Positions 50,804-64,000 of a DNA stretch of 64,000 nt are shown here, one piece after another. This DNA is from Euzebya pacifica. GTDB taxonomy: Bacteria > Actinomycetota > Nitriliruptoria > Euzebyales > Euzebyaceae. A model generated the notes under the pieces. The model saw only the letters and a list, made by a program, of their open reading frames with translations, searched no databases and had not been told where the DNA came from. Every line of letters begins with the position of its first letter. Positions within the stretch are counted from its first letter, which is position 1. Location of the stretch: assembly GCF_003344865.1 (NCBI RefSeq), contig NZ_CP031165.1, positions 3,725,910-3,789,909 of the forward strand, given 5' to 3'. Position numbers and translations under genes: made by a program.

Positions 50804-52210
50804 TCACGATCCGGGGGCGGTGACGCGGTCGGGCAGCACGGCCCGGTCGATCGGCACGATCCGGGTACCGGACATGTCCAGCGCCTCCACCCGACCGTCG
50901 GCGTCGCGCTCGACGGTCACGGCCTCCCCCACCGAGGCATAACCGGGCCCCTCGACCATGACCCAGCGGTCCGGGTCGTCGGCATCCGGCTCGAGCCGAA
51001 CGGTCGCGGCCACCGGATTGGGGACCGTCGGGGACAACAGGTACGCCCGACCGCCCAGCACGGCGACGTCGCGAACACCCCACAACCATGCGTAGCGGCC
51101 CTCGGGGACCCGCGCCCGGGCGTCGTCCACGGGGCCATCGACGGGCGCCGCTGCGGCGTCGACGAGGCGGATGATCCCTTCGACCAGCTCGGGCGCGGGA
51201 CCGTCGATGGCGTTGGTCAGCACCGACACGACCAGCCCGTCCTCGGGCAGGGCGACCGTGCTGGTGATGTGGCCGGCCCACCCCCCGTTGTGGCCGACCC
51301 CGCTGCGTCCGGCGATTCGCGAGGTGATGAATCCCAGCCCGTAGCCGCCATCGGGCACCCCCTCGACCTGCTGGACGGGTCGTTGCAGGCGGCGCTTCGA
51401 CGCATCCGTGAGGAGGCGTTCGTCGCCCGGCAGGTGGGCCGCCATGTAGGTGCACAGGTCCGCGGCGGTCGACCAGACCCCCGTCGCTGCGGCCATCGCG
51501 TTGGTCGGGACCTGGTCGATGGGGACCCGCCTGTCGGCCCACGCCAGCCCGGTGTGGCCGGTCGCCCACGGGCCGTCGACGTCCGGGGTCCAGTCCGGCC
51601 CGGTGTCGGCGAGCCGGAGCGGGTCGAGGATCCGTTCCTGCACCTCCTCCGCCCAGCTCCGGCCGGTCACGGCCTCGATGACCTGGCCGAGCAGGGCGTA
51701 GCCGATGTTGGAGTACTTGAACCGGACGTCGGCGCCGGTCACCGTTCCCTCGGCCAGCACCCGCTCGGCGAGGGTGTCGGCATCGAGGAACGGCGCCTCG
51801 TGCTGCCAGTGGGCGCTGCTCGCGGAGTCCCGAGGGATGCCGCCCGCGTGGGCGAGCAGCTGGAAGAGGGTCAGGTCGGCCACCGGCGAGTCGCTGTCGT
51901 GCAGCCAGTCCAGGCGGGTACCGACCGGGTCGTCGAGGCGGAGATGCCCCTCCTCCACCATCTGCGCCAGCACCGTCGCGGTCATCGTCTTGGAGTGCGA
52001 GGCGATCCGGAAGCGATGCGCCGCGGTCAGCGCCTCCCCCGACGCCTCGTCGGCGACGCCGTGCGCGGTCGAGAGGACGAGCTCGCCGTCGAACCAGACG
52101 GCGGCCTGCACTCCGGGGACGCGGGTGGCGCGCTGGCGGAACGCCAACCAGCGGTCGGCGTAGCGGACCGCATCGTCGACGGCGGCACGGGTGATCGGAT
52201 GGGAGCCCAT
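50804..52210 (-). CDS. Serine hydrolase, beta-lactamase class C/D-aminopeptidase type
   Basis: Penicillin-binding-like serine hydrolase, 468 residues, probably cytoplasmic (no signal). SxxK motif is S71-H-S-K74 in RIASHSKTMTA; the YxN motif is KYSNIGY at ~166; the third motif is HNGGWAGH near 315 (HxG). The C-terminal ~140 residues form an extra beta-rich region. This subgroup includes D-aminopeptidases, esterases and penicillin-binding-like proteins; antibiotic hydrolysis is not implied. Start ATG 52210 is chosen; the region upstream to 52363 contains an RNA-like hairpin element. Confidence 0.9.
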   Translation of the reverse strand: MGSHPITRAAVDDAVRYADRWLAFRQRATRVPGVQAAVWFDGELVLSTAHGVADEASGEALTAAHRFRIASHSKTMTATVLAQMVEEGHLRLDDPVGTRLDWLHDSDSPVADLTLFQLLAHAGGIPRDSASSAHWQHEAPFLDADTLAERVLAEGTVTGADVRFKYSNIGYALLGQVIEAVTGRSWAEEVQERILDPLRLADTGPDWTPDVDGPWATGHTGLAWADRRVPIDQVPTNAMAAATGVWSTAADLCTYMAAHLPGDERLLTDASKRRLQRPVQQVEGVPDGGYGLGFITSRIAGRSGVGHNGGWAGHITSTVALPEDGLVVSVLTNAIDGPAPELVEGIIRLVDAAAAPVDGPVDDARARVPEGRYAWLWGVRDVAVLGGRAYLLSPTVPNPVAATVRLEPDADDPDRWVMVEGPGYASVGEAVTVERDADGRVEALDMSGTRIVPIDRAVLPDRVTAPGS

Positions 52211-52267
52211 GGCCGGCGATGCTAGACGCCAGCCGGGACGCGGCGGCCCGCTCAGGAGTACGGAGCA

Positions 52268-52386
52268 GGACCGCCGCGTCCAGCGGTCCGAGGCGGCGGA
52301 CGGCTTCCCCACCGCACGCGCACCTCGGGCTGGCGGTGCCTCGAACGGGCCTGGCAGGGCCACGATCGAATCACACGTCTGTAGTT
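52268..52386 (+). ncRNA. Structured element A: 43-nt hairpin unit plus leader-like region (copy 1)
   Basis: The conserved unit is 52286-52328: closing stem CCGAGG/CCTCGG around a loop with GGCTTCCCC. It is 43 nt, ungapped and ~84% identical to copy 2 at 52902-52944. An alternative stem GGACCGC (52268-52274)/GCGGTCC (52283-52289) overlaps its first two bases. Downstream come a second weak hairpin (TCGA/TCGA) and CTGTAGTT at 52379-52386, the same 8-mer also found in copy 2. Likely a 5' leader of gene 52446; not a recognised RNA family. Confidence 0.45.
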
Positions 52387-52413
52387 CTGCCGCCGATGGT
52401 ACCGAAGGCCGGA

Positions 52414-52427
52414 GGGTGGGACCACCC
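52414..52427 (+). promoter_or_regulatory. Hairpin just upstream of the 52446 start
   Basis: GGGTGG-GA-CCACCC, a 6-bp stem with a 2-base loop, ends 18 bases before the GTG. Flanking CCGG bases extend it. Together with element A this makes a structured leader of about 180 nt; the hairpin could act as a terminator or hide the start site. Confidence 0.4.
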
Positions 52428-52445
52428 GGCCGGTAGGGTCGAGGC

Positions 52446-52832
52446 GTGCCCCTCGTCTTCCCCTACGACTTCGATCGCCGCTTCGCCCCCATCTGGTGGC
52501 CCCTCGGCGCCCGAGAAGGGCGCGACGGGGTGACCGTCAGCGCCGACACCTTCGAAGCGACCTACGGCCGCTTCGTGCTGCGCACGCCGATCAGCAACAT
52601 CGCCTCGGCGGAGAACACCGGGCCGTACAACCCGCTGAAGTCCGTGGGCCTGCGGATGTCCATGGCCGACAGCGGGCTGACCATGGGCACCACCGGTGCC
52701 AGCGGCGTGTGCGTCACCTTCCACGAGAAGGTGGGCCGCGTCATCGGTCCGTGGTCGCACCGGGGCCTGACGGTGACCGTGGCCGACCCGGATGGCCTCG
52801 TCCGGGCCCTGGGGTTCGGCGCCGGCAGCTGA
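52446..52832 (+). CDS. Hypothetical protein flanked by duplicated hairpin elements
   Basis: Conserved-looking protein of 128 residues that I do not recognise. Aromatic N-terminus (VFPYDFDRRFAPIWWPLG), then beta-rich sequence: VTVSADTFEATYGRFVLRTPISNIASAENTGPYNP, TMGTTGASGVCVTFHEKV and a Pro/Gly end. Neutral, no signal or membrane segment. The start is GTG 52446; GAGG lies close by. A terminator hairpin follows, then copy 2 of the 43-nt element. So this gene sits between two direct-repeat copies of the element. Confidence 0.7.
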   Translation: MPLVFPYDFDRRFAPIWWPLGAREGRDGVTVSADTFEATYGRFVLRTPISNIASAENTGPYNPLKSVGLRMSMADSGLTMGTTGASGVCVTFHEKVGRVIGPWSHRGLTVTVADPDGLVRALGFGAGS

Positions 52833-52860
52833 GCGGTCGTGGGCTGGCGTCGGCCAACGC

Positions 52861-52896
52861 CGACGGCCCGCCCCACCTGGGTGGAACGGGCCGTCG
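52861..52896 (+). terminator. Hairpin terminator of the 52446 gene
   Basis: CGACGGCCCG (52861-52870) and CGGGCCGTCG (52887-52896) form a perfect 10-bp stem with inner CCAC/GTGG pairs, 28 bp after the stop codon. Confidence 0.8.
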
Positions 52897-52901
52897 AGGT
52901 T

Positions 52902-53019
52902 GTCCGAGGCGGCTGAAGGCTTCCCCTCCCTCAGCGCACCTCGGAGGCTTGAGACTAGCCGCCGAACTCCCTGAGGAGCCCATCGGCTGTGGGCACAAGC
53001 GTACTACATGCCTGTAGTT
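52902..53019 (+). ncRNA. Structured element B: 43-nt hairpin unit (copy 2)
   Basis: 52902-52944 repeats the 43-nt unit of element A. Besides the identical closing stem CCGAGG/CCTCGG, an inner stem GCTGA/TCAGC forms; where A has G at the third base it has C opposite, a compensating change. A second hairpin follows (AGCCG/CGGCT with ACTCC/GGAG inside). GGCGGCT (52908-52914) can also pair with AGCCGCC (52957-52963), a competing fold. ACTACA-TGCC-TGTAGT at 53003-53018 is a palindrome holding the shared CTGTAGTT. It precedes the PfkB-SurE genes by 133 nt. Confidence 0.45.
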
Positions 53020-53151
53020 ACACGGCAAGCCGTATGGCGAACTTTTCGCCTCACCCGCCGCGCGGGGGCACGAGACGGCGTCTGGATGGACGGGTTCCCG
53101 AGCACTGGCGAGGGGTATCACCTGTCGACACCAGCGTCATCGGAGGCACGC

Positions 53152-54225
53152 ATGTCGACGGTCAGCGCAGTCCCGCAGCCCATTCCACCCCCGCCCGACC
53201 CCACGGTCGACCTCACCGAGGGCGCTCCGCCGGACGTGGCCCCGGTCGCCGACGTGTGCGTGTTCGCCCCGTCGATGCTGCTCACGGTCACCGTGGAGGC
53301 CACCGGATCCGACGAGGAGGGCCCTGGCGAGGTGCACGTGCACGCCGGCGGCCAGGGGTACTGGTTGACCCGGCTGCTGTGCGGCCTCGGACACCGTCCC
53401 ATCCTCTGCACGTCGCTGGGCGGCGAGACCGGGGCGGTCATCCGTGGCCTGCTGGCCGCAGAGGGCCTGGCCGTCGACCTCGTGACCGTCGAGGGCGCCA
53501 CCGCCGCCTACGTGCACGATCGACGCTGTGGCGACCGACAGGAGGTCGTCCGCACCGGCGACCCCGGCCTGTCCCGCCACGAACGCGACGACCTGTACGG
53601 CGCAACGCTGGAGTCGGCCATCACCACCGGCGTCTGCGTGCTGACCGGGCGGCCCACCCCCGCCGCGATCGAGACCGGCTTCTACCGCCGGCTGGGTGCC
53701 GACCTTGGCACGACCGGCGTCGCGGTGATCGGTGACCTGCACGGCGAGGAGCTCGATGCGTTCCTCGAGGAGGGCCGGCTGCAGGTGCTGAAGGTCTCCG
53801 ACGAGGACCTCCTGGCCGACGGCATGATCACCGAACGCGACCTCGACGACCCCACCGACGCCGGCCTGCGCACCGCGATGTCGTCGCTGGCCGATCGCGG
53901 CGTCGACATGGTCGTGGTCAGCCGTGTCCACCGCCCGACGCTCGCCCTGGTCGGCGGTCGCCTGCTCGCGGCCAGCCCGCCGCGGCTGAGCGAGGCCGAC
54001 CACCACGGGGCCGGGGACTCCATGACCGCCGCGCTCGTACGCGCAACGCTGGAGTCGTTGGAGCCCGCCGATGCGCTGCGGCTGGCCTGCGCTGCGGGGG
54101 CGGCCAACGTCACCCGGCACGGCCTGACCACGGTCGCCCCGTCGCTGGTCGACCGGCTGGCGGAGCTGGTCCAGGTGACCGAGCACCCGACCCCATCCGA
54201 CCGGCCATCGAAGGAGGGCCCGTGA
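53152..54225 (+). CDS. PfkB-family carbohydrate kinase (1-phosphofructokinase-like, divergent)
   Basis: Sugar/nucleoside kinase of the ribokinase fold, 357 residues. The overall pattern is closest to LacC/FruK (VHVHAGGQGYWLTRLLCGLGHRPILCTSLGGETG), with the catalytic Asp in HHGAGDSMTAAL near 289. But the usual GGKGxN substrate motif reads GGQGYW, so Lys and Asn are changed and the substrate may differ from tagatose/fructose phosphate. A Pro-rich N-terminal ~25 residues is unusual. ATG 53152 follows GGAGG. Coupled to surE by GTGA overlap. Confidence 0.85.
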   Translation: MSTVSAVPQPIPPPPDPTVDLTEGAPPDVAPVADVCVFAPSMLLTVTVEATGSDEEGPGEVHVHAGGQGYWLTRLLCGLGHRPILCTSLGGETGAVIRGLLAAEGLAVDLVTVEGATAAYVHDRRCGDRQEVVRTGDPGLSRHERDDLYGATLESAITTGVCVLTGRPTPAAIETGFYRRLGADLGTTGVAVIGDLHGEELDAFLEEGRLQVLKVSDEDLLADGMITERDLDDPTDAGLRTAMSSLADRGVDMVVVSRVHRPTLALVGGRLLAASPPRLSEADHHGAGDSMTAALVRATLESLEPADALRLACAAGAANVTRHGLTTVAPSLVDRLAELVQVTEHPTPSDRPSKEGP

Positions 54226-55067
54226 GCGACGAACCGCACGCACGAAGGATCGACCACGACCCGTCCGACGTCGAGGTCCCGCACCGGCAGCCCGGCCACC
54301 TGTCTGGTCGTGCGCTGGTCACCAACGACGACGGGATCGACAGCCCCGGGCTGCTGTGCCTTGCCCGTGCGGTCCGGCGGGCCGGCCTGGCACCGCTCGT
54401 CGTCGCGCCCGACCGCAACGTCAGCGGGGCAGGGACCGGCATCGGCCAGCTCGACGTCCACGAGGGGGTGGCGTTCCGCACGGTCGAGCGCGAGGGCATG
54501 GACGCCCATGCGCTGGCCGGACCGCCGGGCCTGGCCGTCCTGAGCGCCGCGCTCGGCGCCTTCGGCGACGCGCCCGACCTGGTCGTCTCCGGCATCAACG
54601 CCGGTGCCAACACCGGGCACTCCGTCATCCACTCGGGCACGGTCGGGGCGGCGCTGACCGGCCGGACGTTCGGGTGCAGCGGCCTTGCGGTCAGCCTCGC
54701 CCCACCCCGCGACGACGAGCCGTGGCGCTGGGACACCGCCGAGGAGGTGGCTGGTGAGATGTGCCGCTGGATCATCCGGCTGGGCCGTGACGACGTCGTC
54801 CTCAACGTCAACGTGCCGTCGGTGCCGACGGCCGCGATCCGCGGGTTCCGCTGGACCGAGCTGGAGGCGTTCGGCCACATCCGCGTGGCCAGCGCCGACC
54901 ACGCCGGCCGCCGTGTCGAGTTCGGCGTGCACGGTGACGTCGAGGACCGCTCCCCCACCAGCGACCACCGCTTGCTGGCGGATGGCTGGGTCACCGTGAC
55001 CGCCCTGACGACGGTCGCCCAGGCCCAGCCCCTCGGCCCCGACCTGCCCGCCTTCGTCACCCACTGA
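54222..55067 (+). CDS. surE: SurE 5'/3'-nucleotidase
   Basis: Metal-dependent phosphatase that removes 5'- or 3'-phosphates from nucleotides, stationary-phase survival protein. 281 residues. The metal motif LVTNDDGIDSPG has Asp36 and Asp37; VVAPDRNVSGAGTG, SGINAGANTGHSVIHSGTVGAA complete the active site. An N-terminal ~30-residue extension is atypical. GTG 54222 overlaps the kinase stop (GTGA) so the two are made together: a kinase and a phosphatase on one message. Confidence 0.93.
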   Translation: MSDEPHARRIDHDPSDVEVPHRQPGHLSGRALVTNDDGIDSPGLLCLARAVRRAGLAPLVVAPDRNVSGAGTGIGQLDVHEGVAFRTVEREGMDAHALAGPPGLAVLSAALGAFGDAPDLVVSGINAGANTGHSVIHSGTVGAALTGRTFGCSGLAVSLAPPRDDEPWRWDTAEEVAGEMCRWIIRLGRDDVVLNVNVPSVPTAAIRGFRWTELEAFGHIRVASADHAGRRVEFGVHGDVEDRSPTSDHRLLADGWVTVTALTTVAQAQPLGPDLPAFVTH

Positions 55068-55094
55068 CGGTGGCGGTGCGCGGTGGGCCAGGGG

Positions 55095-61704: not shown

Positions 61705-64000
61705 TCACGAGCAGCCGCTCGTGGTTCCGCAGCCGGGGCAGACGTGGCAGCTGCCGGCACGCTGCATCTTGGAGCCGCACTGCAGGCACAGCGGGGCGTC
61801 ACCGTAGATGTCGTCGACCGGGTGGGGCTGCTCCACGGGGAGCACCGTCTGGCCGGTGGCGTCGGCTGGCGGCGTGGTCGCCGAGGGGGCCGCCGGGGCG
61901 GCCGTGGTGGCGGTGCCGTCGAGCTCGGCGGTCCGCTCCTCGGTGGTGTAGATGCCCATGGCCTGACGCTGCTCGGCCGGGAGGTACTCGATGGCCAGGC
62001 GACGGAAGATGTAGTCGGTCAGCGACGTGGCGAACCGGATGTCCGGGTCGTCGGTCATGCCGGCCGGCTCGTACCGCGTGTTGATGAACTTGGAGACGTA
62101 GGCCTCCAGCGGCACGCCGTACTGCAGGCCCAGGGACACGCTGATCGCCAGGGCGTCCATGATCCCCGACAGCGTCGACCCCTGCTTGCCGAGCTTGACG
62201 AAGATCTCGCCGAGCCCGTCGCCGGGGTACTCCCCTGCCGTGACGTAGCCGTCGGCGTCGCCGACCTGGAAGCTGATCGTCTGGCTGGGACGCTGCTTGG
62301 GCAGGCGCCGACGGACGATGCCCTGCTCGGCCGCGGCCTCCTCGGTCACCGGCTGCGCGTCGTCGCTCTTCTTGGAGATCGACAGCGGCTGGGCGACCTT
62401 GCAGTTGTCGCGGTAGATGGCGATGGCCTTGAGGCCCAGGCGCCAGCCCTCGATGTAGAGGTCCTCGATGTCCTGCACCGTGGCCGACTCCGGCAGGTTC
62501 ACGGTCTTGGAGATGGCACCGGAGAGGAACGGCTGGGCCGCCGCCATCATCTTGATGTGGCCACCGGGGGCGATGGAGCGGTCACCCATGGCGCAGTCGA
62601 ACACCGGGATGTGCTCAGGCTTGAGCGCCGGGGCACCCTCGACCGTCGCGTGCTCGTCGATGTAGGCGACGATCGCCTCGACCTGCTCGGGCTGGTAGCC
62701 CAGGTTGGCCAGGGCGTGCGGGACCGTCTGGTTGACGATGCGCATGGTGCCGCCACCGACGAGCTTCTTGGCCTTGACCAGGCCCAGGTCGGGCTCGATG
62801 CCGGTGGTGTCGCAGTCCATCATCAGGCCGATGGTGCCGGTCGGGGCGAGCACCGAGGCCTGGGCGTTGCGCACGCCGTAGTCCTCGGCGACGTCGACGG
62901 CACCGTCCCAGCTGTCCTCGGCCGCAGCCAGGACGTTGGCCGGGGCCAGCACCGGGTCGATGGTGTCGACGGCCGCGCGGTGCTTGCGCAGGACGCGCAG
63001 CGTGCCGTCACGGTCGTCGGCGAACCCGGCGAACGGCCCGGTGACCTTGGCGATCTCCGCGGACGTGCGGTAGGCGTGGCCGGTCATCAGGGCGGTGATG
63101 GCACCGGCCCAGGCACGACCCTCGTCGGAGTCGTAGGGCAGGCCGAGGCTCATCAGCAGGCCACCGAGGTTGGCGTAGCCCATGCCGAGCTGGCGGTACT
63201 TCTCGGCGTTCGCCGCGATCGGCTCGGTCGGGTAGGAGGAGTTCCCGACGATGATCTCCTGTGCGGTGAAGACGACCTCGACCGCGTGGCGGAAGGCCTC
63301 GACGTCGAAGACGCCGCCCACCTCGAACTTGCGCAGGTTCAGGCTGGCGAGGTTGCACGCGGAGTTGTCCAGGTGCATGTACTCGCTGCACGGGTTGGAC
63401 CCGTTGATGGGACCCGCGTTGGGGGTCGTGTGCCAGTCGTTGATCGTCGTGTCGTACTGCACGCCGGGGTCGGCGCAGGCCCAGGCGGCCTCGGCGATCT
63501 GGTTCATCAGGTCGCGGGCCTTCATGGTCTTGGCCGTCTTGCCGGTCAGGACCTCACGAAGGTTGAAGTCGGCGTCGTCGACGACGGCCTGCATGAACTC
63601 GTCGGTGACCCGAACGGAGTTGTTGGCGTTCTGGTACTGCACGCTGGCGGCGTCGGCACCGTCGAGGGACATGTCGAAGCCGGCCGCCTGCAGGGCGCGG
63701 GTCTTGTCCTCCTCGCGCTGCTTGCACCAGATGAACTCCTCCACGTCCGGGTGGTCGACGTTGAGGATGACCATCTTGGCCGCGCGACGGGTCTTGCCGC
63801 CCGACTTGATGGTGCCCGCCGACGCGTCGGCGCCACGCATGAAGCTGACGGGACCGGACGCCTCACCGCCGCCCTTCAGGTGCTCCACGGAGGAGCGGAT
63901 GTTGGACAGGTTCACACCCGAGCCGGACCCACCCTTGAAGATGGTGCCCTCCTCGACGTACCAGTTGAGGATGGAGCTCATCCGGTCCTCGACGCTGAGG
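61705..64000 (-). CDS. nrdJ: Class II (B12-dependent) ribonucleotide reductase, partial
   Basis: Makes deoxyribonucleotides using adenosylcobalamin; oxygen-independent. The frame runs off the right edge, with the first seen residues LSVEDR before MSSILNWYVEEGTIFKGGSG; 765 codons are inside and the N-terminus (~150-200 residues) is missing. Key parts: NPCSEYMHLDNSACNLASLNL with the catalytic Asn, Cys and Glu, AACSA-type loop motifs, and the C-terminal zinc-ribbon tail with CxxC pairs (CLQCGSKMQRAGSCHVCPGCG) and the redox Cys at the end. Fits aerobes and anaerobes alike; typical in Actinobacteria. Followed by a T-tailed terminator. Confidence 0.95.
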   Translation of the reverse strand, partial: LSVEDRMSSILNWYVEEGTIFKGGSGSGVNLSNIRSSVEHLKGGGEASGPVSFMRGADASAGTIKSGGKTRRAAKMVILNVDHPDVEEFIWCKQREEDKTRALQAAGFDMSLDGADAASVQYQNANNSVRVTDEFMQAVVDDADFNLREVLTGKTAKTMKARDLMNQIAEAAWACADPGVQYDTTINDWHTTPNAGPINGSNPCSEYMHLDNSACNLASLNLRKFEVGGVFDVEAFRHAVEVVFTAQEIIVGNSSYPTEPIAANAEKYRQLGMGYANLGGLLMSLGLPYDSDEGRAWAGAITALMTGHAYRTSAEIAKVTGPFAGFADDRDGTLRVLRKHRAAVDTIDPVLAPANVLAAAEDSWDGAVDVAEDYGVRNAQASVLAPTGTIGLMMDCDTTGIEPDLGLVKAKKLVGGGTMRIVNQTVPHALANLGYQPEQVEAIVAYIDEHATVEGAPALKPEHIPVFDCAMGDRSIAPGGHIKMMAAAQPFLSGAISKTVNLPESATVQDIEDLYIEGWRLGLKAIAIYRDNCKVAQPLSISKKSDDAQPVTEEAAAEQGIVRRRLPKQRPSQTISFQVGDADGYVTAGEYPGDGLGEIFVKLGKQGSTLSGIMDALAISVSLGLQYGVPLEAYVSKFINTRYEPAGMTDDPDIRFATSLTDYIFRRLAIEYLPAEQRQAMGIYTTEERTAELDGTATTAAPAAPSATTPPADATGQTVLPVEQPHPVDDIYGDAPLCLQCGSKMQRAGSCHVCPGCGTTSGCS

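Follow-up and report, generated by a model that had tools for sequence, protein, structure and literature searches.

In the 64,000-nt stretch of DNA analysed here (the window), two copies of a short hairpin lie on either side of a small hypothetical gene, which raises the question of what these elements are and which genes, if any, they serve. A first-pass annotation had taken them for a structured RNA element on the plus strand, acting as a switch or attenuator in the leaders of the hypothetical gene and of the pfkB-surE pair. The conservation, structure, covariation, strand preference, synteny and non-coding nature of the elements can be observed in the sequences compared below, and we think it reasonably likely that they are sibling small non-coding RNA genes of ~130–150 nt each, encoded on the minus strand.

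The two hairpins (52286–52328 and 52902–52944, 43–45 nt each) align without gaps over 43 nt at 84% identity. When copy 1 was used as a DNA query against the whole genome of the window (G000; 6.37 Mb, 2 contigs), its sole other match was copy 2 (E 2.7e-6), and a search of the whole genome with a covariance model gave no convincing third copy (next best E 1.2). Both copies contain a CCGAGG/CCTCGG stem with a GGCTTCCCC loop (as read on the plus strand) and are accompanied by CTGTAGTT, at 52379–52386 and 53012–53019. On the minus strand, AACTACAGNNNTGT occurs exactly twice in the window, versus 0.05 occurrences expected by chance, and AACTACAGNNNTGTRRT has exactly two mismatch-free occurrences in the G000 genome. 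The first-pass annotation was therefore right about two gapless copies of about 84% identity, which are the only such pair in the genome, and the common stem, loop and downstream CTGTAGTT that it described were all confirmed.

We compared the locus with three congeners, G001, G002 and G003. The first-pass annotation would have been undermined by a lack of further copies in relatives; in G002 the two are retained in unchanged order on either side of the hypothetical gene's orthologue, and G003 has one. No copy was found in G001, including in the region 3' of its nrdJ gene. Both copies in G000 and G002 score 72–75 bits with the covariance model, and the G003 copy reaches 42 bits (E 3.8e-6) when its own sequence is left out of model building. 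Between G000 and G002 the core hairpins are 97.7% identical each, the GC-rich hairpins on their 3' sides 96% (copy 1) and 95% (copy 2), and the dyads on their 5' sides 94% and 84%, with the changes central in the dyads; a DNA search gives 91% identity for copy 2 in G002. The flanking genes are 79–85% identical and other spacers 74% and 57%. Values of 95–98% for the cores and 3' hairpins, against lower ones for genes and spacers, suggest that the former are under purifying selection. Protein-coding constraint does not seem to be involved: G000 and G002 differ by 1-nt indels around copy 1, no small ORF common to both copies was found in these two genomes, and the elements are non-coding, with no conserved reading frame.

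A compensating inner-stem change (T-A versus G-C) had been reported between the two copies. It is present at model columns 13–32, and further ones appear once G003 is added, whose lower stem has the paired changes A-U to G-C, G-C to C-G and G-C to U-A while its loop is identical. In the gapless alignment three pairs have changes on both sides. In the model-fitted alignment 5 of 16 pairs have changed on both sides (reached by 3 of 500 shuffles) and 95% of cells pair (reached by 1 of 500 shuffles; slid structures give 35–44%), in a small set of five distinct sequences from three closely related species and in a fitted version that is biased toward the model. Compensatory changes thus persist in a larger, still small, alignment, which supports the original view that a structured RNA element is present twice.

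These changes also bear on whether the repeats act as DNA, that is, as an inverted repeat for recombination, replication or protein binding with no RNA role. Inverted repeats accompanied by a dyad would suit such an element, as would the breakpoint of a 2-kb indel ~10 bp or less from the copy 2 dyad. However, the combination of a covarying stem and a conserved, asymmetric loop speaks for RNA, neither G-U pairs nor strand asymmetry would mean anything in duplex DNA, and there are just two copies per genome. We consider a purely DNA-level element very improbable.

The two strands differ in how well they fold. On the minus strand, the core hairpin of copy 1 (a 45-nt model region at 52285–52329, loop TGGGGAAG, covariance model score 72 bits) has a folding energy of -29.2 kcal/mol (z -3.7) and that of copy 2 (52901–52945, loop AGGGGAAG, 74 bits) has -31.1 kcal/mol (z -4.8), versus -22.8 and -22.6 kcal/mol (z -1.8 and -2.9) on the plus strand. 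Folding is stronger on the minus strand because its G-U pairs, at model columns 8–36, 15–30 and 16–29, turn into A-C mismatches on the plus strand. A substitution between G000 and G002 in the larger 3' stem of copy 1, read from the alignment, likewise produces a G-U pair on the minus strand but an A-C mismatch on the plus strand. Full-length folding of copy 2, cited for the minus strand, has a z-score of -3.28, and full-length folding predicts the loop to be unpaired at nearly all positions in all five sequences. The G003 copy folds equally well on either strand. Taken together, the G-U pairs, folding scores and covariation probably favour the minus strand for both elements, and the plus-strand orientation of the first-pass annotation is not supported.

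The neighbouring genes point away from the plus strand as well. The hypothetical gene between the copies (52446–52832, plus strand, 128 aa) belongs to no Pfam or NCBIfam family and, within the genus, was found in G000 and G002 only (82% identical in G002, or 79% in the alignment that gave the percentages above; G001 and G003 do not have it), with differences mainly at third codon positions. Its GTG start at 52446 is preceded by a putative -10 box, TAGGGT, and a 6-nt gap (52434–52445, plus strand), a candidate leaderless promoter that is kept in G002 and lies more than 100 nt past copy 1. Downstream of copy 1, a minus-strand gene (50804–52210) encodes a serine hydrolase of beta-lactamase fold (Pfam PF00144, E 8e-59; 85% identical in G002). 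It has a -10-like box, TAGCAT, at 52219–52224, 8 nt ahead of its ATG, which is also kept in G002 and may be its promoter. TAGGGT-6-GTG and TAGCAT-8-ATG starts are typical of leaderless actinobacterial mRNAs. Since both neighbours have conserved starts of this type, copy 1 is probably outside the mRNAs of both the hypothetical gene and the beta-lactamase-fold gene.

On the far side of copy 2, pfkB-surE (53028–55094) is absent from the same place in G002, in a clean 2.07-kb insertion or deletion whose junctions are ~10 bp or less from the copy 2 dyad and from the stop codon of an oxygenase gene. As the pair stands between the oxygenase gene and the copy 2 dyad and is missing in G002, it was either inserted here or lost there.

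The original proposal would make the copies plus-strand leaders that act as a switch or attenuator for the hypothetical gene and pfkB-surE. Each copy does precede a plus-strand gene, and folding on that strand is possible, but there the copies carry A-C mismatches, fold more weakly and have the strong GC hairpin standing before each core. The positional links are broken too: pfkB-surE is absent beside a conserved copy 2 in G002, the hypothetical gene is absent from G003, which has the element, and the leaderless-type promoter of that gene lies beyond copy 1. This leader role is among the weakest of the explanations considered here and is hardly plausible. As regards copy 2, it is convergent with the hypothetical gene on its favoured strand and therefore cannot be its leader.

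Read 5' to 3' on the minus strand, both copies have the same order of parts: a dyad, a variable hairpin, the core hairpin with its invariant GGGGAAG loop, and a strong GC-rich hairpin. The dyad consensus is ACTACA-N4-TGTRRT, also written AACTACAG-N3-TGTRRT. The dyad 5' of copy 1 (52370–52386, minus strand, AACTACAGACGTGTGAT) is imperfect but conserved, and its exact motif occurs in G000 only at the two copies; the dyad 5' of copy 2 (53003–53019, minus strand, AACTACAGGCATGTAGT) reads ACTACA-N4-TGTAGT, and in G002 its half-sites are invariant and the central bases alone differ. The same motif is present at both copies in G002, and we regard both sites as putative promoters or operators. The variable hairpin of copy 1 (52330–52368, minus strand) is 87% identical in G002 and folds in both genomes; that of copy 2 (52946–53001, minus strand) is 77% identical, yet a hairpin forms in both genomes.

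The strong GC-rich hairpin begins ~0–10 nt after the core in every copy. In copy 1 two such hairpins overlap (52268–52289 and 52236–52281, together 52236–52289, minus strand) and are presumed to terminate RNA 1. In copy 2 it is a 36-nt inverted repeat (52861–52896, minus strand), a presumed terminator that probably also serves the convergent hypothetical gene. Consensus scans detected neither a sigma-70-type promoter nor a U-tract terminator at either copy; the hairpin at 52861–52896 is missing from the scan list because it has no T-run, and at copy 2 the pfkB-surE junction falls in the -35 region, which for this reason is not conserved.

The overlapping hairpins of copy 1 raise the alternative that this copy is a minus-strand leader (attenuator) of the serine hydrolase gene, in which the hairpins would switch between termination and read-through. 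They end ~26–58 nt ahead of the ATG on the same strand, and both alternative hairpins are retained in G002. However, the gene has its own conserved leaderless-type start (TAGCAT-8 nt-ATG), its distant homologue in G003 is without the element, and copy 2 has no downstream gene on its strand, which makes this attenuator distinctly unlikely.

The single copy in G003 is placed differently, ~20 nt 3' of the stop codon of nrdJ, with a GC-rich hairpin right after it and no dyad. In the window, nrdJ (B12-dependent ribonucleotide reductase; 61705–64000, minus strand, NCBIfam NF005122) is ~8.7 kb upstream of copy 2, and in G002 it is ~6 kb upstream. The position in G003, together with the location of nrdJ upstream on the same strand in the other two genomes, suggests that the ancestral place of the element may have been downstream of nrdJ. 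In G001, on contig 16, the gene directly downstream of nrdJ (L061:923–2290) resembles, as we take it, a SMODS/CBASS-type nucleotidyltransferase, possibly within a defence island.

The G003 hairpin resembles part of a 3' UTR, which counts against sRNA genes and leads to their strongest rival. Here the core and the GC-rich hairpin would form a module at the transcript ends of upstream genes, for processing, stabilisation or as a 3'-UTR-derived RNA. The constant pairing of core and GC-rich hairpin fits this, as does the G003 copy right after the nrdJ stop codon; in G002, moreover, the copy 2 dyad starts 17 nt past the stop codon of the same-strand oxygenase gene. In G000, however, there is no minus-strand gene immediately upstream of either copy: next to copy 2 is the divergently oriented pfkB, and copy 1 adjoins the 5' end of the hypothetical gene, which is on the plus strand. 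That a dyad is conserved on the 5' side of each copy further suggests that they have promoters of their own. A 3'-end module is thus a possibility to keep in view, though an unlikely one.

Beyond the genus, no convincing relative of the element was detected. The whole window gave no Rfam match at the gathering threshold, and the region around the element gave chance-level matches only at E up to 5. A DNA search of 40 relatives returned just short, chance-level matches outside G000 and G002. Among 66 genomes of the class (62 of them outside the genus), the covariance model gave, apart from G000, G002 and G003, only weak matches (E 0.0016–0.005), with cores lacking the GGGGAAG loop; those in G006 and G038 appear to be inside protein-coding sequence. 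In a 396-genome sample of the phylum it matched only these three members of the genus, in a search whose strict pre-filters can miss weak matches. The covariance search across Actinobacteria suggested by the first-pass annotation thus yielded further copies in G002 and G003 and none convincing elsewhere in this sample. Applied to the nrdJ regions at 28 loci of the class, some of which end before the nrdJ 3' end, the model found G003 only, and viral contigs, plasmids and phages gave no match.

A pattern search of 84,980 species genomes gave two matches, one in Actinacidiphila, where the outer stem is missing, and one filed under Roseicyclus. The latter contig (CAKZPN010000064.1, L047), from an uncultured Roseicyclus MAG, shows no difference from the window in the 181 bases read around copy 1 and probably belongs to the window's species, having been mis-binned.

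We therefore return to sibling sRNA genes as the preferred explanation, for which we infer transcription, a promoter, termination and action in trans via the loop. RNA 1 would extend from ~52370 down to 52236–52268 and RNA 2 from ~53000 down to 52861, each starting at or near the ACTACA-N4-TGTRRT dyad, which is probably bound by a dimeric regulator. Each RNA would form the variable 5' hairpin and then the conserved core hairpin, and end at the strong GC-rich hairpin as terminator. The invariant single-stranded GGGGAAG loop would be the likely contact site, either for CUUCCCC-type mRNA sites through base pairing or for a protein. This would make the elements a new, narrowly distributed RNA family, apparently restricted to the genus, matching no catalogued RNA family and ordinary in kind. 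A bolder version, which we regard as a long shot, is a new actinobacterial RNA class whose 8-nt loop, (A/U)GGGGAAG, is recognised by a dedicated protein or ligand, and which is carried 3' of nrdJ in one species but takes the form of twin sRNA genes, controlled by a dyad-binding regulator, in others.

A literature search of titles and abstracts (genus name plus small RNA) found no paper on sRNAs of the genus Euzebya. If transcribed, the two RNAs would be sRNAs from a deep-branching lineage of actinobacteria in which RNA has been studied little or not at all, and a compact example of a duplicated sRNA in which core and loop are fixed while the 5' part drifts. The invariant loop provides a concrete target hypothesis.

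Several known systems resemble parts of this arrangement. The 6C RNA of actinobacteria has two C-rich hairpins. Like it, the element here has a single-base run in a hairpin loop, whose complement, CUUCCCC, is rich in C; unlike it, the element has a G-rich loop on the favoured strand and one core hairpin. Identity with 6C RNA was rejected, as the Rfam 6C model was matched neither at the gathering score nor when E values up to 5 were allowed. An NrdR site was rejected for the dyad, since the spacing or order differs. The CopY/BlaI operator, TACANNTGTA (PMC7253601), has the same TACA/TGTA half-sites as the dyad, but with TACA-N2-TGTA spacing, whereas all sites here have N4. The CadR (MerR family) operator, CCTGTAGTTACTACAGG (PMC12301328), has the identical hexamers TGTAGT and ACTACA, but its half-sites are in the opposite order. 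Neither assignment was retained. A third ACTACA-N4-TGTAGT dyad is present in G000 (G000:C1:718509–718524; L028:1502–1517), in the spacer that separates an integrase-like gene from a divergently oriented gene of unknown function. A dyad regulon was likewise discarded, as the other genomic dyads are near the integrase-like gene and unrelated genes with no shared theme.

Sibling (tandem) sRNAs are known elsewhere, as in OmrA/OmrB, PrrF1/PrrF2 and AbcR1/AbcR2 (review PMC4211561). The likeness to these pairs is one of arrangement, and unlike them the two copies have an opposite-strand gene between them. As in those pairs, two related RNA genes would be neighbours on the same strand, their cores nearly identical and the rest diverged.
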